A DNA stretch of 22,888 bases, taken from positions 1 through 22,888 of the forward strand of contig JAGLYR010000118.1 in the NCBI GenBank assembly GCA_023132135.1, written 5' to 3'. The stretch's first letter is position 1; each line of letters begins with the position of its first letter. A program made the position numbers and the translations under genes. This document shows, in pieces, positions 1,739 to 13,245 of this stretch. The notes beneath the pieces were generated by a model that saw only the letters and a program-made list of their open reading frames with translations, was not told the DNA's origin and ran no database searches. The DNA comes from Candidatus Eiseniibacteriota bacterium. Lineage in GTDB: Bacteria > Arandabacterota > Arandabacteria > JAGLYR01.

Positions 1739-2131
1739 GCCCCGGAATTTTGAGGGGTGTCTTTGGAGCATGGAGAATCGTGGTTCTCCGGCGCGGCGGT
1801 ATGGACCGTCATGCCGTGACCGCTTTCTCGAATACTGTTCTTGTGATTGTGGGAGCAGTTGCCTGGCGGGACCTGAAGGGGGGAAGACGAATCGCGCTGG
1901 GCGATGGACACAGCAAACAAAGAGGCAGTTTAGTGTAGAGAACCGCCTGGGGTCCGGAGAAATGATCCCGGCGATGGTATGGATGGCATCGTGGCTCGGG
2001 GGGCCACGGCGTTCGTTGCTCAAGGGACAAGGAGGATGCGAGTGAGTTGGTGCAGGGAAGATGCAATTGGGCGAGGACAGAAGCGCGGGAGAAGAGAAGC
2101 CCGTAGCTCGGGACGCGATGGAAAACGCGCG

Positions 2132-2138
2132 AAGGAGG
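2132..2138 (+). promoter_or_regulatory. Ribosome binding site that decides the giant gene's start
   Basis: A strong AAGGAGG lies eight bases before the ATG at 2147 and only two before the ATG at 2141. The spacing favours 2147, and translation from there opens directly into a clean signal peptide. A second AAGGAGG at 2029-2035 lies directly against an in-frame ATG at 2036 (no spacing) and six bases before an in-frame GTG at 2042, so a longer product cannot be fully excluded. Confidence 0.65.
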
Positions 2139-2146
2139 TTATGTCG

Positions 2147-5100
2147 ATGGTCACGTCAGGGAATCGTCTACTGGTTCTCTCTCTGGTCCTCACGGCGATG
2201 GTCATGCTGATGGTGAGCCCGGCCAACGCTGTGTTTGAACGCGGTGTGAGGGTCAAGACGACTGTTGCTGAGAGTACATACGTGAAGATCGACGTCGAGG
2301 ATCCTGCAGAGGCCGACAACCCTAACGCCTTGGGTGTAGGCATTGTCTCTCCCGGAGACAAGGTGAGACTGCTCATCCACGTGCAGAACACGCACAACCC
2401 GGCCTCGACAGTCAATGCCAAGGATCTCAGGATGCTTGGACAGACCATCGGGTTCAAGCCGCTTGCTGTGGTTGCGGCTACCGATGAGACGCTGGCCGAA
2501 ATGGCGCTCTTGAGCCCTGACGAGGCGGATGCGGCGATGCCGGATGCCGGCAACGCGGGCGACGGAGACTTCGCTGCCGCACCCACGCCCGATACCACGC
2601 TGTGGGTCGACATCGACTGGCTCGAGGCCAACGCCACAACGGACTCGGCGTTTCACTATTACTTCGAGATCGAGTGCACCGACGCCACTGATCCGTTCGT
2701 GTTCTCCGTGAACCGGGTTTGCATGACGACCGGTGGCGCGTTCATAACCTGTCCCGATTATACGCTCGGGACCGCGTACTACGCCCAGACGGCGGCGGAC
2801 ACGATGGGCTGCGACTTCGACATCGATCAGGGCGCCACCGTGGACTTCATCGTCACCGACAAGCTCTACATCTGGGCCGACCGTCACGTTGCCGACGAGC
2901 TGTACGCTCTGAACGTGACGGTGGCGACCTCCGGCAATGAGGACCACCAGGGCGCCTTCGACTTCGAGGTGACGTTCGAGTACACCGGGTCCGACACGGA
3001 CAGCGTCACGGTGGACCCGAACATTCCGCTCAACACCTTCCCGCCGGCCTGGGGGCCGGTGACCGCATCCCAGATCCGCTTCGACTGGCAGAGCGATAAC
3101 TCGGGGATGGGAAGTCTGTTCAACTGGGCCTATGCGGACAGTATCCTGAACCCGGCCAGCGGCATTTTCGGGACCGCGCCGGACGGGCTCCTGGGCGAGA
3201 TCAATCTGGATGCTCTCGCTCTGTATCCGAGTACGCTGGGCGACATCGGATACATCGGGTTCGATTTCACCCGGATAGCGGACTCGCTGGGAACCTACGG
3301 GGACCTGGCCGACGCCACCTTCGGCGGTGAGCCTGAGGCTACACATATCGGGGGCAATGTCTACCAGACGGCCCCGGTGGCCGTGCTCCAGGCGTTCCCG
3401 AAGTGGGCCGGAACGGATACGACGTCCGGCATCCACACAGTCACCGTGACCCTGTGGGACAACGGCGGGAACCTCATCAACCTGACAAGCACCGCCACGC
3501 TCCCGGCGATCGACAACCGGGTCCCGGCCTTGCAGGCCGGCTTCACGGGTGAAGACATCACGATCACCGAGGACGTGACAGTCGCCGGCTCAGTGACCTG
3601 GCTGAACCCCGCCAGTGGCGCCGACTCGGTGGGCGACTGGGTGAAGTGCACCGTCGATCTCGACGACGCCCACGACAAGGCCGACATCGTGGCAGGCGGG
3701 CTTGTCCTGTTCGACCTCTACAGCGTCATCGCCAATCCGGATACGTCGATCCAGTGCCCGGGAGTGGCCACGGGATGGTACCGGACCACGGCCACGACGA
3801 AGGCCACGAACTACGCCACACCGCAGGTCGAGGTGTTGGAAGGCACCCAGCGTAGCTATTCCACGGACAGCGTCCGCGTGAACTGCTACCTGATCGATGA
3901 TGCGGGGAACGTTGCTGTTGTGGAGTCCGATGGCCAGTACGCTGCCTTCAAGAACGTCGATAACGAGATTCCGACCGTGCCTGTCGGCAACATCGCGATC
4001 GCCTTTGTCGATCAGGATGCGACCGGCGGCCCCGAGGCTACTCCGAGTGACGTGGTGACCGTGATGGTCGACGCCTCGGGCGTCTTGGACGAGTCCTCCG
4101 TAGCCGCCAAGGGCGGCACGGCCTTCGGTGAGACCTTCACGGTGGCCGACGACGGGACGGACCCGGATGCCACGGTCGGAGACAGAATCTACACCGGCGA
4201 CGCGACTCTCCAGGGGGGCAAGAGCCTGATTGACGGCCTGGAGTACTTCACGCTGGTGGTCACCGATACGGCGGGCAACGTGTCCGAGGACATCATCTCG
4301 ACGGCCAGTCTCAACATGGATACCGACGAGCCGACGCTGACCGAGACCAACATCACCATCGCCTTCACGGACAACCCGGCAACTCCGGGCATTGATGGCG
4401 ATGCCAACGGCGACGGCGTGGTAGCCGACGATGACTGGGTAACCATCACGTTCGACTACCAGACCGAGGGCCTGACAGACGTGGTCCAGGGCCAGGGCCA
4501 GTCGGCGGTTCGGGTCGATCTGTCTACGATCGACGTGAACGGCGGCGTGGTGGCAATGACGCAGAATCAGGCAGCCGGCGTCTGGACCTTGAACTACCAG
4601 CTGACGTCGGGCGCTAACGGTGTTTCCGCCGAGGTGGGCGCCAAGGTTCAGGTAGAGGATGACGCCGGCAACCAGTCGGCCTGGGTCACATCCACTACCT
4701 CCACCGTGACGGTGGACCAGCGGCCTCCGGCGTTCACCGAGGCCGACATCCTCGCCGGCTTCGCCACCAACGGCGACGTCAATGGCGACGGTATTGCGGC
4801 CATCGGCGATATTGTGAAAATCCAGATTACTGTGGACGCCGATTCCGTCGAGGTCAACACGACGCCGATCAACGGTGTTCTCGGATTCACTCCGATGGTC
4901 TTGGCCAAGGGTACGTTCTCCCTTGAGGTCACGGTTACCGAAGACGGGTCCGGCGGTCTGGATGAGGGCATCGAGGTCAAGTGCTACGATGCCGCCGGCA
5001 ACTCTTCCACCAAGACCTCGGCCACCAACACCCTGGACCTCGATCCCGATCCGCCGCTCATGACTGCGGACGAGATCCTGGTCTTCGTTTCCAACGACGA

Positions 5101-8100
5101 GGTGGGTGGCGTCGGGCAGCCGGGCGAGGACGTCGTCAACGTGAGCGACGAGATTACCATCGCCTACGAGGACGAGACCCAGGGCGACATCAAGTCGGTT
5201 GTCGTCGATGTCTCGGCCTATGATGTCACCAAGAGCACTGTGACACTCAACCGGAACTTCAACGGCCTCGGACAGAATGTGTTCGGTTGGATCCTCGAAG
5301 TGGAGGCAACCGGGCTGGATCTGGCGCCGGGCGCTGCCGGGACCGGTCTTGCGTACACGGTGACGGACTCCAGTGGAAACGTCTCGACCGAGACGGTATT
5401 CCCGGAGGATTCGAATGTGACGATGGGGGGCGCCGATCCCGTGGAAGGCGCGCGGGCTATCAACCTGGCCTCGGTCGACACCGATCCGCCCGACACACCG
5501 GCAGGTGGAGCATTCACTCTGACCGGTGACCTCGACGCCAATGGAATCGTCAACGTCGGCGACCGGATGGACATCGTCATCGACATGGGCGACCCAGGCG
5601 TCGCCGGCTACGATATGGGATGGGAGAACACGGGCAACGGCCCGATGGTGTGGGTGGACCTCAACCACTACGGCCTGGGCGCCGCGGTGGCGCTGACCGA
5701 TGATGAGTACTCGGTCGGCGGTGAGGGCGACGGCCAGTGGTCCTACATAGATGGGGCCAACCTGCAGGGCTTCATTGTACAGCCCGGGGACCTGGACGAA
5801 GCGGCCGGCAGTGCGAACACGCAGGTCGAAGCCTGGGCCCGGGACGACGACGGCAATGTCGACCAGACCAAGGTTCTGACAGCGGTTCCGGATGACGGTG
5901 TGGCCAAGGCCGCAGTGGCCGTGGACACCCAGATTCCGCTGGTGGTTGCCGCCGACGTCATAGTCACGCTCCATACGGATGCCGACGCCAATGGTTGGGT
6001 GAACATCGGCGACTCGGTTCTGGTGAGCGTCGACATGAGCGAGACTGCTGCAATCGACGCGGTCAGCGGTGTGTGGGCGCTTCTGGGGCCCTGGGGTGAC
6101 GCAACCCAGGACGACGACGAGCTCTACGTCCAGCTCAGCAACGGTACGAAGGCTGATACCTGGACCTACACCCACTACGTGTCCAATACGGACAACGCGG
6201 TACTGTGGGACATGAACACCGGCGGCGCCTTTGCGGCAACGCTGGAAGTTATTGCATTCGACAATGCCGGAAACTTCTCCGGCTATACCGCCTTCGACCC
6301 CGTGGCGCTGGGTTACACCACGTCGATCGTTCAGGATCTCCTCGTAGACGTGAGCGCTCCGAACCCGGTGACGAACCTCCAGGCCGAGATCCTGGATTCG
6401 GGCCGGATCAAGCTCACGTGGACGGTCTCCAGCAGCACCGACCGCCATCACTACTTTGTCTTCGCGGATGGCGGCACGGGCACCATGGACTACACGACTC
6501 CGGTCGGTGGCCCCGTGGATCCCAACACGGCGCAGTGGGTGTCTGATTTCCTTGTCACCGAGGAGAAAGCAACGTGGCTCTTTGCCGTCCGCACCTACGA
6601 TGACGGCGGCAACGACGACGGCGACACCTTCTGGGTCACAGGAGGTACTCCTGACGACTCGGCTCCGGTGGGGACGCTGGCCTCAGTGCCCGTGGGTTAC
6701 AATCTGGGTAACGGTGCGGATATCGACGGCGCCGGTTTCGTGATCATGATCCACGCGGATGTGGATCAGACGGTCTACCCGGATGTGGCGAGCTGCCAGT
6801 TCCGGTACCGGATTGCGGACATCGATCCGGATGCGGCCGGCAACCAGCCGGGTTCGTTCGATAACCTTGGAGTTCTGGACGCGACGATCCCGTTCGAGGT
6901 TTCCACGGCTGCGCTGTTGGCCGCCGGAGGCGAAGGGATCTTCGAGATTATCGCTCGGGTGTTCGATGACGCCGGGAACTACCAGACGGATGACGCTCTG
7001 GCAGCCAAGGGTGTCTACACTTTCCAGATCGATACCACCGTTCCGGACGTCCAGATTGTTTCGGTCAACGGCAACCCGTCGCCGAACAACATAGAAGTCA
7101 GCGGCGTGGTTCCGGTCGTGATTGCGGCCCAGGACGATGTGAGCAGCACGTTCCATGTGCGGATCATCTTCAACGGCCAGGAGGTGTACGACGAGACCGG
7201 CGTGACGTTCACCGAGAATCTCACATACAACCTGGACTTGACCAGCATGACGGCGGGTGCCTACACGCTCCAGGTTCTCGTTTACGACGAAGCCGGCTAC
7301 ATTCCCATAGATGCCACCCCGACGGGTGGGTCGGACACCATCACCCTCGTGGTGCTGGATACCGTGGTGCCGATCGCCTCGTTCACCACGCCGACCAATG
7401 GCCAGCGGGTGCCGATGGGTAACGTGTTCGTCGAGCTGCAGGCCAGCACGGCGCCTGGGGCGTCCGACATTGCCACGGCCCAGCTCCTCATGAGTGCGCC
7501 GGCAGGTGGGAAGGGATGGGAGGTTGTCGGGACCATCGATAACTCCTTCGATCCCGAGTATCCCTTCAACTGGGATACCAGTTCACTCACCGACGGCGAG
7601 ACCTACTGGTTGATGGGCAAGTTCTGGGACGCCTCGGGTAACGAGGCCTACAGCGATTCCATCTTCGTGATCGTGGACGGTACAGTGATGGCGGTGGATC
7701 TGACGATTCCCGAGATCCAGACCCTCTGCGACCTGCCGAAGGTGAGCGGAACGAGTGTCGAGCTTATCGCCTCGATCACGGGCAAGGATCCGGTCGATAT
7801 TGCCAATGTGAAGTTCTATCGGAAGGATTCAGACAACCCGGACTTCTACAACCAGTGGACACTCATGGCCACGATTTCCCAGGGTGCGCCGGGTGGTGGT
7901 GGCACAGGCGCCACGCTCTTTAACTTCACCTGGAACACCACGGGTCTTGTGGACGGATGGGATATCCGGGTGATTGTCACCGACACCGCCGGCAACGTCT
8001 CGGACGACGCCGACGGTGACGGAGCATTCGACGATCACACTTTCGCGACCACAAAGGCCGCGGGAATGTCCGTCTGGGTAGACAATACGGCGCCGACCGT

Positions 8101-11100
8101 GGATATCGCCAAGATCACTTCGGGCGGCAACGAGTTTGTCGATCCGGATATCGGCGGCGGTGTGGTCTGGGTCGCTCCGGGCGCCGACATCACGGTCGAG
8201 TCGTTGGTCAGCAACACTGACTGTGACGCCGAAGTCTGGAAGGTCGAGTACTCAATCACCTACGATGGCAGCACTATGAACATCGGGATCTCGACTGTCG
8301 GTCCGAGCTTCCCACTGATGTTCAATCCGTTGAACGACGGATTGATTCCGCCCGACGACATGGAGGACCAAAGCGCAATCACAGCCTTCACCCTCCGGGC
8401 CCAGGCGTATGACCACTTGGGTCAGAGTTCGACGACCACGACGGTTACCGTCTACATTCTTGACGCCGCCGCCACTCAGGTCTTTGTGAGCGAGCCGTTT
8501 GACGGGGCCTACGTACGTGGAGACGTTTGCCTGAATGCCAAGCGTCTGGACGACTACACCGGGAGTGAGTACACCTGGGAGTACTCGACAGATCAGGAAA
8601 CATGGCATCTCATCGGCACCGGCACCACATCGTATGACACCTGGGAGACGCTCAACAACGTGCCGGACGGCCCGGCCTGGTTGCGGGTGACGACGGTGGA
8701 CGAGCACTTCAACACCGACACTAGCCCGTCGATCGGGGTCACCGTCGACAACACAGCGCCGACGGATCTCACGTTGACGGGCATCCCGGCGATGATCGGG
8801 CGGACGCCGGTTACGCTGACCACGACGGCGACCGATGCCAGCGGCATCATGAAGGTCGTGTGGCAGACCAAGTGGTCGACGACCGAGACGGATGACTGGG
8901 ACACCATCGACTCGGACAACTGCGCTCCCTTCGCGTACGTGTGGGATGCGTACGACTGGTATGACTGCAGCGGCCAGGTGATGATCCGGGCCCTCGTCTA
9001 CGACAAAGCCATCGAGTGCATTGACGAGGACGGGAACTACTCGATCATCGAAGTCGAGACGGTCATGGACTTCTGCCCGCCGTTTGGCTGCATTTCCATG
9101 ATCAACGACACCGAGGCCATTCACGGCGACACCGATTATCCCGAGTTCCCGGCGGGCCAGATGACGTTCTACGCATGGGCGTCGGATGATCCGGCGGAGA
9201 TGCCGTGGGACGACTGTCTGGATGACCAGTGCTGCTGGAATGACGGGGCGGAGATCATCCACTCCGGCGTCCAGGGCGTCCAGTTCCAGGTCTACGCGAG
9301 CGGTTGGTCGGACATCGGCCTGCCGGTCACCGCAGTTGGCACCAGCGGCTACTACGAGCTCCGGTGGGACAACGGCGAGTGGTCACCCGGGACGACGATG
9401 CGTGTCCGTGCGAAGGTCATCGACAACGCATACAACTGGTACGAAGGATCGGACTGCTGTCCGGAAGTGTACTTCACTATCGGCGACTACACGGCGCCGG
9501 TGGCCACACTCCGGGCGATCGATCCGATCACGGGTACCCTGGTTTACACGGCGTCCCCTGACGACGCGGATGAGATCGGCGAGATCGAGTTCCGCGTGAT
9601 GCCGGTCGGCAAAGCTGAGTCCGACTGGACAATCATCGGCAAGCGCACCGGCGATCTCGACAATTGGGGTGACTGCAACGACTACCTCAGGTGGGATTAT
9701 TACGACCGGTGGGAGTTCACGAACTGGCCGAGCGGCGACTACCTCCTCGAGGCTCGCGCGTTCCACAACGATCACGATTCTCTGAATCCGCTGTACGACG
9801 CGAACCCGCCGACTCTGATGGTGCGGGTCGACGCGGTTGCCCAGCGGGTCACAGTGCTTCCGAGCGGCGCGGGTCACCTCACCTCGCTCGAGCACCTGGG
9901 GATTGTTGGCGACTCGTATTACCATGACTGCGAGGTCATCAATTTCCAGATGACATGCGACAACTGCGTGGAGTGCGAAACGTGCTGCGGCGGTCCTGTC
10001 CTGGTCTTCTTCGGGCACGAGTACCCGTGCGATGATCACTGCGATAACCTCGAGATCAGGGTTATCGGGACCGAATACAACGCACTCGACGGTCTGTGGC
10101 GTCAGGTCGAGTACTACGAGCTGGACTGGCTGAACGTGGAGTATGAAGGCAACATCTTCATCGTCGGCAGTTGGTGGGACAGGAATGTTGCTGAGCCGAC
10201 CGACCCTGAAGTCGACGCCATAACCTCCACGGTCGATATCTTCCGCGTCACTGATGAGCGGGGGACTGCCGGACCGGTCCAGAGTCAGGGTGTCACCGTC
10301 GATATTCCGCCCGGAAACGGGGTGGATTGGTACGGATTGCGCATGGCGAAAGTCCCGCAGCCTCCGACTCCGCCGGAGCAGCAGGAGTACCTCCTCCCGG
10401 TCGGAGACACGCGGTCGATCTGCCTGATCGATGAGAGCCCGTCGCTTGACAACGCGGCAACGATCACGATTCCGTTCTGCACGCCGGTCAAGGGCAGCTT
10501 CCAGTCGCTGGGCTACACCATCGGCCGCTGGGACGTGAGCTCCGCACGCTGGGAGTTCCAGGACATCTGGGATGTGACCGTGGATGAGGAGAACTGCCTG
10601 GTTACGTTCAAGACGCATACGTTGGGTATCTTCTCCGTGATCCAGCGCTATGGTCTGAACATCGCCGGCTGCGGTCCGCTCTACTTCGAGAACGGCTACA
10701 CCAACGCGGCGCCGATTCTGAAGGCCTACATCACGGATTTCACGGACTACAGTGAGCCTGTGAACGGCGTCGATCCCAGTTCCATCAAGGCGGTCCTGAA
10801 CGGGATTACGATTCTCTCGGGCGGGCAGTTCGCCGAGAACTGGACCGGCGCCTCTGAGCTCGGCTTCAGCTCGGGCCAGTACTACGACCAGGTGTCCGGT
10901 CTGTTTGCAGTTGCAGCGTGCGGCGTGAACGACCTGCTGCATCCTGGTGAAGAGCACACACTGGTGATCAGTGCGCGCAATGTCGTGGGCGACGCAGTGA
11001 CGGACACCTGCACGTTCAAGATCGACCGCACCAAGCCGGTCGTGGACTGGACGGGTGGTTGGGTCGGACCCGACTTCCAGGTCGAGTTCAACATCACGGA

Positions 11101-12145
11101 CACCGAAGCAGGTGTTGATCCGAGGTCCGTCAATCTCGACTTCTACTCGGTCGTGCGGGATGACGAGGATGAAGAGGGTCCGGATCCGGACGACCATTGC
11201 TGTTGGGATGGTATTAACCACTGGGATGGCAACGAGAGCAAGGAATACCGCATGCAGCTGACATCCGACGCGTTGACGATCACCGGGGACACTCTCGGCG
11301 TGACAACGGTCATTGCGGCTGACATCGCCATGGATATCCACCATGGTGAGATGCTCGACGTTGTCCTCTACAGTTCCCGGTCGTGTTTCGAATGCGCCGA
11401 CTACTATGATGAGGGCGATCACGAAACCGACGAGATCGTGTACTCGTACTCGGTCGGTGTATACGACCGGGTGTATGACTCGAGCACCGGCAGCTGGAAG
11501 AACGGCTCTACCTACGGTATCAACATGAACGTCATCAAGCCGGTTGAGCGGCGGTACATGGTGGACGGAGTGGCGCCGGAGCTCACGCTCCTGACCGCAC
11601 TCAGCTCACCAACGCTGGAGTTCCGCCTCACTGACTGTGGTTCCGGTCTGGATCCGACGACCATCGCTATCACCGAGGATGGCGAGGAGGTGACCGGCTG
11701 GAGCTACGATGCGGTTACCAAGAAACTCACCTATGAGCCGAGCGGCGGCGGGGTGAGCGTGGTCATCAGCATCCAGGACGGGGTGGGCAACGCAGCAGTC
11801 CTCACGCTCAACACCGAGGCCAAGGTGCTGGCGTTCAATGACGTCCACAACTACCCGAACCCCTTCGATCCTGAGTTGGATGGAACGACCCAGATTGTCG
11901 GGTACCTGAGCCAGGAAGCCCACGTGACCGTGAAAATCTACGATTTCGCGGGCGAATACGTGGCGACGCTGGTCGAGGATGAGTTGATGCAGTCTGTGCT
12001 GGATGACTTGTTCTGGTCGGGCACGGACTCGGAAGGCAATCCGGTGGCCAATGGCGTCTACTTCTGCCACATTATTGCAGAGGGCAGGAGCAAGACTTCA
12101 ACGGCCAATGTGAAGATAGCGGTTCTCCGAGGATCCTCGGACTAG
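2147..12145 (+). CDS. Giant secreted multidomain Ig-like surface protein with T9SS-type C-terminal domain
   Basis: The protein has 3,332 residues. Residues 1-28 are a classical signal peptide ending ANA. An N-terminal domain of unknown family runs to about residue 500. From about 605 to 1402 there are tandem Ig-like modules with DAGN/DSSGN turns, and four of them carry dockerin-like calcium loops (752, 877, 1128, 1278). A fibronectin type III-like domain follows at about 1404-1495 (PNPVTNLQAEILDSGRIKLTW). More Ig-like domains joined by VDNTAPT linkers reach about 2350. Residues 2350-3060 are rich in Cys, Trp, Tyr and Asp. A segment near 2749-2835 resembles the 'IPF...W...FSVI' tails of surface proteins. 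Residues 3230-3332 form a FlgD-like/T9SS type A-like sorting domain (NYPNPF at 3235). The whole protein is strongly acidic. It is probably exported across the outer membrane and attached or released as an adhesin, S-layer-like or matrix protein. No catalytic site was recognised. Confidence 0.85.
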   Translation: MVTSGNRLLVLSLVLTAMVMLMVSPANAVFERGVRVKTTVAESTYVKIDVEDPAEADNPNALGVGIVSPGDKVRLLIHVQNTHNPASTVNAKDLRMLGQTIGFKPLAVVAATDETLAEMALLSPDEADAAMPDAGNAGDGDFAAAPTPDTTLWVDIDWLEANATTDSAFHYYFEIECTDATDPFVFSVNRVCMTTGGAFITCPDYTLGTAYYAQTAADTMGCDFDIDQGATVDFIVTDKLYIWADRHVADELYALNVTVATSGNEDHQGAFDFEVTFEYTGSDTDSVTVDPNIPLNTFPPAWGPVTASQIRFDWQSDNSGMGSLFNWAYADSILNPASGIFGTAPDGLLGEINLDALALYPSTLGDIGYIGFDFTRIADSLGTYGDLADATFGGEPEATHIGGNVYQTAPVAVLQAFPKWAGTDTTSGIHTVTVTLWDNGGNLINLTSTATLPAIDNRVPALQAGFTGEDITITEDVTVAGSVTWLNPASGADSVGDWVKCTVDLDDAHDKADIVAGGLVLFDLYSVIANPDTSIQCPGVATGWYRTTATTKATNYATPQVEVLEGTQRSYSTDSVRVNCYLIDDAGNVAVVESDGQYAAFKNVDNEIPTVPVGNIAIAFVDQDATGGPEATPSDVVTVMVDASGVLDESSVAAKGGTAFGETFTVADDGTDPDATVGDRIYTGDATLQGGKSLIDGLEYFTLVVTDTAGNVSEDIISTASLNMDTDEPTLTETNITIAFTDNPATPGIDGDANGDGVVADDDWVTITFDYQTEGLTDVVQGQGQSAVRVDLSTIDVNGGVVAMTQNQAAGVWTLNYQLTSGANGVSAEVGAKVQVEDDAGNQSAWVTSTTSTVTVDQRPPAFTEADILAGFATNGDVNGDGIAAIGDIVKIQITVDADSVEVNTTPINGVLGFTPMVLAKGTFSLEVTVTEDGSGGLDEGIEVKCYDAAGNSSTKTSATNTLDLDPDPPLMTADEILVFVSNDEVGGVGQPGEDVVNVSDEITIAYEDETQGDIKSVVVDVSAYDVTKSTVTLNRNFNGLGQNVFGWILEVEATGLDLAPGAAGTGLAYTVTDSSGNVSTETVFPEDSNVTMGGADPVEGARAINLASVDTDPPDTPAGGAFTLTGDLDANGIVNVGDRMDIVIDMGDPGVAGYDMGWENTGNGPMVWVDLNHYGLGAAVALTDDEYSVGGEGDGQWSYIDGANLQGFIVQPGDLDEAAGSANTQVEAWARDDDGNVDQTKVLTAVPDDGVAKAAVAVDTQIPLVVAADVIVTLHTDADANGWVNIGDSVLVSVDMSETAAIDAVSGVWALLGPWGDATQDDDELYVQLSNGTKADTWTYTHYVSNTDNAVLWDMNTGGAFAATLEVIAFDNAGNFSGYTAFDPVALGYTTSIVQDLLVDVSAPNPVTNLQAEILDSGRIKLTWTVSSSTDRHHYFVFADGGTGTMDYTTPVGGPVDPNTAQWVSDFLVTEEKATWLFAVRTYDDGGNDDGDTFWVTGGTPDDSAPVGTLASVPVGYNLGNGADIDGAGFVIMIHADVDQTVYPDVASCQFRYRIADIDPDAAGNQPGSFDNLGVLDATIPFEVSTAALLAAGGEGIFEIIARVFDDAGNYQTDDALAAKGVYTFQIDTTVPDVQIVSVNGNPSPNNIEVSGVVPVVIAAQDDVSSTFHVRIIFNGQEVYDETGVTFTENLTYNLDLTSMTAGAYTLQVLVYDEAGYIPIDATPTGGSDTITLVVLDTVVPIASFTTPTNGQRVPMGNVFVELQASTAPGASDIATAQLLMSAPAGGKGWEVVGTIDNSFDPEYPFNWDTSSLTDGETYWLMGKFWDASGNEAYSDSIFVIVDGTVMAVDLTIPEIQTLCDLPKVSGTSVELIASITGKDPVDIANVKFYRKDSDNPDFYNQWTLMATISQGAPGGGGTGATLFNFTWNTTGLVDGWDIRVIVTDTAGNVSDDADGDGAFDDHTFATTKAAGMSVWVDNTAPTVDIAKITSGGNEFVDPDIGGGVVWVAPGADITVESLVSNTDCDAEVWKVEYSITYDGSTMNIGISTVGPSFPLMFNPLNDGLIPPDDMEDQSAITAFTLRAQAYDHLGQSSTTTTVTVYILDAAATQVFVSEPFDGAYVRGDVCLNAKRLDDYTGSEYTWEYSTDQETWHLIGTGTTSYDTWETLNNVPDGPAWLRVTTVDEHFNTDTSPSIGVTVDNTAPTDLTLTGIPAMIGRTPVTLTTTATDASGIMKVVWQTKWSTTETDDWDTIDSDNCAPFAYVWDAYDWYDCSGQVMIRALVYDKAIECIDEDGNYSIIEVETVMDFCPPFGCISMINDTEAIHGDTDYPEFPAGQMTFYAWASDDPAEMPWDDCLDDQCCWNDGAEIIHSGVQGVQFQVYASGWSDIGLPVTAVGTSGYYELRWDNGEWSPGTTMRVRAKVIDNAYNWYEGSDCCPEVYFTIGDYTAPVATLRAIDPITGTLVYTASPDDADEIGEIEFRVMPVGKAESDWTIIGKRTGDLDNWGDCNDYLRWDYYDRWEFTNWPSGDYLLEARAFHNDHDSLNPLYDANPPTLMVRVDAVAQRVTVLPSGAGHLTSLEHLGIVGDSYYHDCEVINFQMTCDNCVECETCCGGPVLVFFGHEYPCDDHCDNLEIRVIGTEYNALDGLWRQVEYYELDWLNVEYEGNIFIVGSWWDRNVAEPTDPEVDAITSTVDIFRVTDERGTAGPVQSQGVTVDIPPGNGVDWYGLRMAKVPQPPTPPEQQEYLLPVGDTRSICLIDESPSLDNAATITIPFCTPVKGSFQSLGYTIGRWDVSSARWEFQDIWDVTVDEENCLVTFKTHTLGIFSVIQRYGLNIAGCGPLYFENGYTNAAPILKAYITDFTDYSEPVNGVDPSSIKAVLNGITILSGGQFAENWTGASELGFSSGQYYDQVSGLFAVAACGVNDLLHPGEEHTLVISARNVVGDAVTDTCTFKIDRTKPVVDWTGGWVGPDFQVEFNITDTEAGVDPRSVNLDFYSVVRDDEDEEGPDPDDHCCWDGINHWDGNESKEYRMQLTSDALTITGDTLGVTTVIAADIAMDIHHGEMLDVVLYSSRSCFECADYYDEGDHETDEIVYSYSVGVYDRVYDSSTGSWKNGSTYGINMNVIKPVERRYMVDGVAPELTLLTALSSPTLEFRLTDCGSGLDPTTIAITEDGEEVTGWSYDAVTKKLTYEPSGGGVSVVISIQDGVGNAAVLTLNTEAKVLAFNDVHNYPNPFDPELDGTTQIVGYLSQEAHVTVKIYDFAGEYVATLVEDELMQSVLDDLFWSGTDSEGNPVANGVYFCHIIAEGRSKTSTANVKIAVLRGSSD
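3959..6352 (+). repeat. Tandem Ig-like modules with dockerin-like calcium loops (inside the giant gene)
   Basis: About six diverged modules of roughly 110-150 residues follow one another. Each opens with a phrase such as D-x-x-[IP]-P followed by a strand like ITIAF, passes through a loop, and closes with D-x-x-G-N-x-S. Four loops obey D-x-[ND]-x-[DN]-G-x5-D exactly: DANGDGVVADDD (residue 752), DVNGDGIAAIGD (877), DLDANGIVNVGD (1128) and DADANGWVNIGD (1278). This is the 12-residue calcium-binding loop of dockerins and EF-hands. A looser DADGDG copy lies at residue 1954, outside this block. The repeats are visible at protein level. The DNA is diverged, so they are old. Confidence 0.7.
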
Positions 12146-12167
12146 TACGGTTCTGCGGGACGGACTT

Positions 12168-12190
12168 GTGGGCGGGCTTTGCCCGCCCAC
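12168..12190 (+). other. Perfect hairpin between the giant gene and the PorV-like gene
   Basis: GTGGGCGGGC and GCCCGCCCAC form a 10-bp GC-rich stem with a TTT loop. No T-run follows, so complete termination is unlikely. It lies 23 nt after the giant gene's stop and ends 29 nt before the ribosome site of the next gene. It could stabilise the long upstream message, block 3' exonucleases, or act as a partial Rho-independent stop. Confidence 0.6.
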
Positions 12191-12234
12191 CGGTTCCGCG
12201 CTGGAAACCTGGCTTGCGAAGGAGGCGAAGAGAA

Positions 12235-13149
12235 ATGACGAAGTTCAGCACTGCGATGACAGCGTCCCTGCTGGCCCTGGCAGTCGGACTGGCCGCGGCT
12301 GGTCCGTGCCCTGCTGAGGATCTTGCCCACAGCGCCCCGTTTCTTGGAATGGGCGTGGGACCCAGGGCCCTGGCCATGGGTGGAGCGTACGTCGGCGTTG
12401 CCGATGACGTGACGGCCGGATACTGGAACCCGGCGGGACTGATGCAGATTGACTGGATCGAGGCCACGTTCATGTATTCGGATATGGATCTCGACCGGAA
12501 GTACAACTACTTTGCCTACGGGCACCATCTTGATTTCGGCGCCGTGGCAATCAGCTGGATCAATTCCGGGACGGACGACATCAAGATCTACAACCCTGAT
12601 GGCACTGCGGACGGTACGGACAACTGGAACGACAACGCACTTCTGCTTTCCTACGGGACCGGCCTCGGGGGCTTTTACGTGGGCGGGACTGCGAAGATCC
12701 TGTGTTCGAAGATGGGGGATCAGGACGATACCGGCTTTGGCGTGGATGCAGCCGTGCGATTTGTTCCGTCATCCAAGCTCGCGGTCGGCATCATACTCCA
12801 GGACATCGGAACGCAGTACTGGGGCGAGACCGTGCCATCGACTGTGCGCGTGGGTGTGGCTCTGAAGTCGGCGGACGAGGATTTCCTGATCGCCGCGGAT
12901 ATTGACAAGAAAGGCGATGAGGACATCCGGTTCCACCTGGGCGCGGAATTCCAGTTCGCATACGTTCCTGGCAACTACGCAGCGTTGAGGGCGGGGCTTG
13001 TCAGTAGCGAGAGCCAGGAAGACAATGTGGCTCTGAGCTTCGGCGCCGGCCTCTGGGTGGGTTCCGTCAGCCTGGACTACGCCTACCTGCCGGAGAAGCA
13101 GGAGTTCATGAACAGCAGCCACCGGATTGCGCTGACCGGAAGGTTCTAG
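12235..13149 (+). CDS. PorV/PorQ family outer-membrane protein
   Basis: Residues 1 to about 27 are a signal peptide (hydrophobic SLLALAVGLAAAG). The mature N-terminus carries the family hallmark: FLGMGVGPRALAMGGAYV, then VADDVTAGYWNPAGL. The remainder is a beta-barrel with repeated aromatic-glycine strands and ends in Phe (ALTGRF), as outer-membrane proteins usually do. At 304 residues it fits the shorter members of the family. In Bacteroidota, PorV shuttles type IX secretion cargo to the attachment complex. Here the neighbouring giant protein with a sorting-like C-terminus is the obvious candidate client, but that link is inferred. The ATG was chosen because AAGGAGG (12219-12225) lies nine bases before it. 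An in-frame upstream extension would put an Arg-rich stretch before the signal peptide. No other T9SS gene is in the window. Confidence 0.85.
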   Translation: MTKFSTAMTASLLALAVGLAAAGPCPAEDLAHSAPFLGMGVGPRALAMGGAYVGVADDVTAGYWNPAGLMQIDWIEATFMYSDMDLDRKYNYFAYGHHLDFGAVAISWINSGTDDIKIYNPDGTADGTDNWNDNALLLSYGTGLGGFYVGGTAKILCSKMGDQDDTGFGVDAAVRFVPSSKLAVGIILQDIGTQYWGETVPSTVRVGVALKSADEDFLIAADIDKKGDEDIRFHLGAEFQFAYVPGNYAALRAGLVSSESQEDNVALSFGAGLWVGSVSLDYAYLPEKQEFMNSSHRIALTGRF

Positions 13150-13207: not shown

Positions 13208-13245
13208 CATGGGCCCCCTGCCCAGCGCAGGGGGCCCATGTCTTT
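13208..13245 (+). terminator. Rho-independent terminator of the giant gene/PorV-like unit
   Basis: CATGGGCCCCCTG (13208-13220) and CAGGGGGCCCATG (13228-13240) make a perfect 13-bp stem with a seven-base loop, followed by TCTTTT. It lies 58 nt after the PorV-like stop codon. The T-run is short, but the stem is very stable and may work in both directions. Confidence 0.8.

Follow-up and report, generated by a model that had tools for sequence, protein, structure and literature searches.

We report a pair of adjacent genes, encoding a giant secreted protein and a PorV-family outer-membrane barrel, that probably represents a cognate cargo-shuttle module of a type IX secretion system (T9SS) outside the Bacteroidota, one that would use a SprA pore in common with other cargo. 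The evidence for such a module comprises gene content, adjacency, conservation and family membership. The cargo-shuttle relation is supported because pairs of this kind recur, because the C-terminal domains (CTDs) of paired cargo diverge, and because this divergence is mirrored in the barrels. From this we infer that the giant and the barrel would be physical partners. The pair lies in the window, by which we mean the whole 22,888-nucleotide stretch that was analysed (Candidatus Eiseniibacteriota bacterium, GCA_023132135.1, contig JAGLYR010000118.1, 1-22,888; positions are on the forward strand). The host is an uncultured bacterium, kin to Candidatus Eisenbacteria, and one relative in the same class was deposited under the latter name. 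The features of the locus are as follows.

2132..2138, + strand: ribosome-binding site of the giant gene, AAGGAGG (direct sequence reading)
2147..12145, + strand: gene for the giant secreted protein, 3,332 aa (open frame; full-length orthologue in relative G001)
2147..2230, + strand: probable signal peptide of 28 residues, ending SPANA (read from the translation)
7004..7297, + strand: region with the highest Ig-like scores within the body (Pfam Big_3_3, 23.1 bits, and Big_7, 21.9 bits; each under its cut-off)
11852..12142, + strand: sorting-type CTD, YPNPF ... IYDFAG ... NGVYFCHI ... KIAVLRGSSD (over the FlgD_ig cut-off; likeness to PorU and PorZ CTDs)
12220..12225, + strand: ribosome-binding site of the barrel gene, AGGAGG (direct sequence reading)
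12235..13149, + strand: 304-aa outer-membrane barrel of the PorV family, the proposed shuttle of the giant (NF033709, 113 bits; 14-strand model)
13208..13240, + strand: predicted intrinsic terminator hairpin of 14 pairs, closing the two-gene unit (pattern scan, which is suggestive rather than conclusive by itself)

The frame of the giant is open over 1979-12145, and the start at 2147 is preferred, with AAGGAGG ~8 nt upstream and the signal peptide following (...LVLTAMVMLMVSPANA). For the barrel, the preferred start is the ATG at 12235, which also has its AGGAGG upstream. The two genes are on the same strand, with 89 bp from the stop of the giant to the start of the barrel. Given the hairpin 3' of the barrel, and given that the pattern scan found no terminator between the genes, co-transcription is likely, on a single two-gene transcript, in line with the original prediction that the pair ends at one terminator. 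Elsewhere in the window, a 319-aa open reading frame (558-1517) with a signal-peptide-like start and no Pfam match adjoins a gene for a DUF1844 protein.

The giant had been described as a 3,332-residue secreted protein with a CTD of the FlgD/T9SS type, and this was borne out, coordinates included. Its C-terminus carries the motif YPNPF...KIYDFAG...W.G.D..G..VANGVY and passes the FlgD_ig model (27.5 bits, cut-off 27). It falls just under the type A model TIGR04183 (20.4 bits, cut-off 23), and below both the type A model PF18962 (14.2 bits, cut-off 27) and the type B model CHU_C PF13585 (13.5 bits with the whole protein and 18.3 with the CTD alone, cut-off 27). The protein also has partial matches to the models of PorZ and PorU, which cover the CTD, and the profile match of the CTD to PorU has an E value of 2e-8. 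The structure model of the CTD, of moderate confidence (pLDDT 76), is an all-beta, Ig-like antiparallel beta-sandwich whose best structure matches include PorU 6za2 and PorZ 5m11 (Z 8.1, 26% identity). With moderate confidence, then, the predicted domain resembles the CTDs of PorU and PorZ. The protein as a whole is ~356 kDa and acidic, with a pI of about 4 (composition from the translation), and has no peptidase domain; no DNA repeats of 40 bp or longer were found within its gene. An adhesin or stalk would be in keeping with the Ig-like traces, all sub-threshold, and with the D.N.DG loops of the acidic body, and the giant is probably one or the other, displayed at the surface.

That the next gene encodes a PorV/PorQ-family barrel also proved correct, as it passes the PorV_fam model NF033709 (113 bits, cut-off 90). 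The score is below the cut-off of the PorV equivalog NF033710 (27.5 bits, cut-off 250) and far below that of the PorV2 equivalog NF052325 (97 bits, cut-off 325), the latter being, next to the general PorV family, the nearest of the models for a named subfamily, with a function listed as putative. There was no match to the PorP/SprF family TIGR03519 at E 1. On these scores the barrel is a member of the PorV family and not of PorP/SprF. We therefore class the module with neither the type A nor the type B systems, because its CTD is under the curated cut-offs of both and its barrel is not PorP/SprF. The C-terminal residue of the barrel is aromatic (...TGRF), and its model (pLDDT 75) has 14 strands and a FadL-type fold. 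The top Foldseek match to this model is PorV 8gl6_F, from a T9SS complex with the RemA CTD bound (E 1e-9). By VIA-align, PorV 8gl6_F (Z 29.2, 269 residues, 22% identity) and FadL (Z 29.6, 14% identity) are tied, and this equally FadL-like modelled fold counts against the module.

It could thus be argued that the giant is ordinary T9SS cargo, carried by the general PorV, and that the barrel is kept beside it by linkage as a FadL-type channel or a BamG-like, BAM-associated protein. BamG of Bacteroidota, which takes part in the assembly of outer-membrane proteins, is indeed homologous to FadL (PMC12578637), and in Flavobacterium johnsoniae one PorV is reported to serve type A cargo and their CTDs, whereas type B cargo often have a linked PorP/SprF (PMC12618676). 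However, the barrel is over the PorV_fam cut-off and lacks a Pfam FadL match, and PorV is its sole significant solved relative by sequence profile. Moreover, as described below, barrels of this family are recurrently paired with unrelated cargo carrying divergent CTDs, which would be unexpected for a channel or a BAM subunit. We regard this reading as unlikely.

The host genome is a 3.4 Mb draft in 345 contigs, 96% complete. SprA and PorU, both named in the original prediction, were found: SprA on contig C275 (TIGR04189, 498 bits, cut-off 200; PF14349, 72 bits) and PorU on contig C141 (NF033707, 553 bits, cut-off 420). Directly 3' of PorU is the best-scoring PorV_fam gene of the genome, the canonical PorV. 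A count of other proteins with such a domain gave about 140 CTD sites in the genome, together with 14 PorV-family loci, the window barrel included. By gene content, the host encodes a T9SS. This is not in itself new, as T9SS genes have already been reported in several FCB phyla, including Cloacimonadota (PMC11285876). The core-gene search succeeded only in part, in that the GldL, GldM and GldN models (PorL/M/N) gave no credible match in the fragmented draft. It should be noted that these models come from Bacteroidota, and that the GldN model gave no match in any control genome either. A negative result from models of that origin, in so fragmented an assembly, does not establish that the motor is missing. 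Likewise, the search for a full-length PorE in the host found none, with matches to the OmpA domain only. By these model searches, undetected PorL/M/N and PorE count against the module. A genome with ~140 CTD sites yet an unrecognisable motor raises the question of what powers a T9SS without recognisable PorL/M/N.

The adjacency is conserved. In two members of another family of the same class, a barrel orthologue (42% identity) lies directly 3' of a giant CTD protein (G001, JAOZOU010000016; G004, JALGWB010000054), and in a third relative the barrel sits at a contig end. The giant of G001 has 3,451 aa and aligns to that of the window at 28% identity over 3,285 columns. The MazG and alanine racemase genes near the pair are also common to the relatives. 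A single-sequence scan of contigs for barrel relatives returned nothing, and an alignment-based scan gave matches. Two Cloacimonadota MAGs encode a barrel with 30-33% identity to that of the window, 10-11 bp 3' of a CTD protein. In both, the body of the CTD protein is unrelated to that of the window giant; in one MAG the protein is at least 3,308 aa long. The Cloacimonadota CTDs carry a DFAG motif, as does the CTD of the window giant. Judged from these alignments, relatives in another family have kept the two genes together, and Cloacimonadota have a related form of the pair, which answers the question of adjacency raised in the original prediction. Neither of the two results that the original prediction named as contradicting it, a genome devoid of T9SS core genes or separation of the pair in close relatives, was obtained. 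In the Cloacimonadota loci (L141:1-12872 and L142:3-5818), the CTD protein, the barrel and a PorE-like gene follow one another with very short gaps, and the body of one of the CTD proteins is built of CHB_HEX_C_1 (chitobiase-type) repeats.

The gene after the Cloacimonadota barrel encodes PD40, carboxypeptidase-regulatory-like and OmpA domains (in one case TPR as well), and the one such gene tested scored 180 bits against T9SS_PorE, under the cut-off of 600. The same order is seen in F. johnsoniae, in operons for a substrate, an SprF-like protein and PorE (PMC12618676), and it recalls the PG1035-PorP-PorE complex of Porphyromonas gingivalis (PMC9143113), in which PorP holds PG1035 together with PorE and which differs in the family of its barrel. 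From a PorE-like peptidoglycan-binding gene next to the barrel it might be argued that the barrel is a static anchor or scaffold, to which the giant is fixed at the envelope after leaving SprA by the general route. The genome of the window, however, is without a recognisable full-length PorE. Furthermore, secretion itself requires SprF-type barrels (PMC12618676), and shuttle and anchor roles are thus not exclusive. A purely static anchor seems to us improbable, more so than a linked channel.

Pairing of this kind extends well beyond the window. In a survey of 79 PorV-family genes from ten genomes, four of these outside the class, 48 lie directly 3' of a CTD gene with the same orientation, usually with 30-190 bp between the CTD stop and the start of the barrel domain; none of the 79 had an opposite-strand CTD gene ending just upstream. 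The 48 CTD partners form about 22 clusters by body similarity. Only 5 of them are PorU-like, so the pairs are not PorU-PorV in disguise. That pair, of which the host has its own copy on C141, has the same layout of a CTD protein followed directly by a PorV-family barrel, the difference being that PorU is a sortase and the giant has no peptidase domain. Since both CTD genes and PorV-family genes are common in the host, some adjacency might be put down to chance. However, 7 of the 14 host PorV-family loci are paired, versus ~0.013 CTD stops expected per 600-bp upstream window (P about 2e-10), and the arrangement persists in other families and phyla. Conservation and CTD density together rule out a fortuitous adjacency, to which we assign a negligible probability.

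About eight cargo/PorV-family pairs, that of the window among them, occur in the host, and dozens in related genomes. The idea of a dedicated export unit for one giant protein must therefore be modified: a cognate cargo-shuttle relation is supported, and uniqueness is not. Nor is the unit self-contained, because the SprA pore is common to other cargo and is encoded on another contig (C275). The wider pattern appears to be new, as none of the papers found in the open literature, to which our search was limited, describes a pairing of PorV paralogues with cargo of type A.

The paired CTDs are distinct from those of orphans. Scored with a profile built from 79 orphan CTDs of the host (a set that includes loci chosen at successive ranks of a genome-wide search by paired-CTD profile), orphans reached a median of 103 bits (leave-one-out) and paired CTDs 34-90 bits (Mann-Whitney p = 5e-5), the paired set including the C319 CTD, near a contig end, whose pairing is presumed. 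The divergence held after enlargement of a first orphan sample that leaned to the top FlgD_ig matches. The DFAG motif occurs in 0 of the sampled orphans; of the 48 paired CTDs, just those of the three giants have it. Across within-genome pairs, CTD similarity tracks barrel similarity (Spearman 0.60, with 0/1000 shuffles as high; 0.56 without close duplicates), although these tests are less independent than the counts imply, as families recur across several genomes. These comparisons show a tendency of cargo and barrel to be passed on together as a unit. Joint inheritance of linked genes would by itself also produce mirrored divergence, and such divergence is not itself proof of binding.

Under the cargo-shuttle module that we favor, the giant would cross the inner membrane by Sec and pass through the SprA pore used by other cargo. 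The adjacent barrel, rather than the general PorV, would then collect its divergent CTD from SprA, and might hold the giant at the cell surface or hand it to a fixed site. By analogy, the closest functional counterpart is SprB-SprF, along with other type B CTD/PorP-SprF pairs of F. johnsoniae (PMC12618676). There, likewise, a giant surface protein has a T9SS CTD, the gene immediately 3' of the cargo encodes a 14-strand FadL-type barrel, and there are many pairs per genome (9/12 in F. johnsoniae; PMC12618676). The differences are that here the barrel is of the PorV family and that the CTD, instead of being type B, is type-A/FlgD-like.

The pairs suggest dedicated shuttles on the PorV branch too, in several lineages. 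The chances seem to us roughly even that, outside the Bacteroidota, T9SSs commonly rely on a whole set of PorV-family shuttles, every one dedicated to a single cargo that is encoded next to it and has a divergent, type-A-like CTD. If so, dedicated shuttles would replace the one PorV serving all type A cargo, and the arrangement could be an ancestral or parallel form of SprB-SprF, possibly with a different motor. The dozens of natural CTD-barrel pairs are also material for mapping recognition residues.

A reverse search from divergent orphan CTDs found a barrel partner at one locus, on C11 of the host (L231:4248-6050), where the gene directly after that of a 301-aa CTD protein encodes a 276-aa barrel-like product, missed by the PorV family model and matching a local profile only. 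For the divergent orphan CTDs on C84, C73, C101, C223 and C295, the same search found no recognisable barrel partner. C319, with a CTD near its contig end, and C169, with a barrel near its contig end, are possible neighbours in the intact genome, though they have no exact end overlap. On C142 (L232:158-4516), a 1,095-aa CTD protein precedes a 347-aa protein ending VRKWF, possibly a barrel, that has no NCBIfam match. The PorV-family protein on C98 (L068:8226-9815) has about 230 extra residues after the barrel and adjoins a CTD protein of 540 aa that also contains an internal FlgD_ig domain. Finally, a recurring three-gene cluster of the host (C289, L064:254-6329; C226, L066:3346-9036) starts with a barrel of the TonB-dependent-receptor or OMP_b-brl type carrying a carboxypeptidase-regulatory-like domain, continues with a 600-717 aa CTD protein that has relatives in several other genomes, and ends in a PorV-family barrel.
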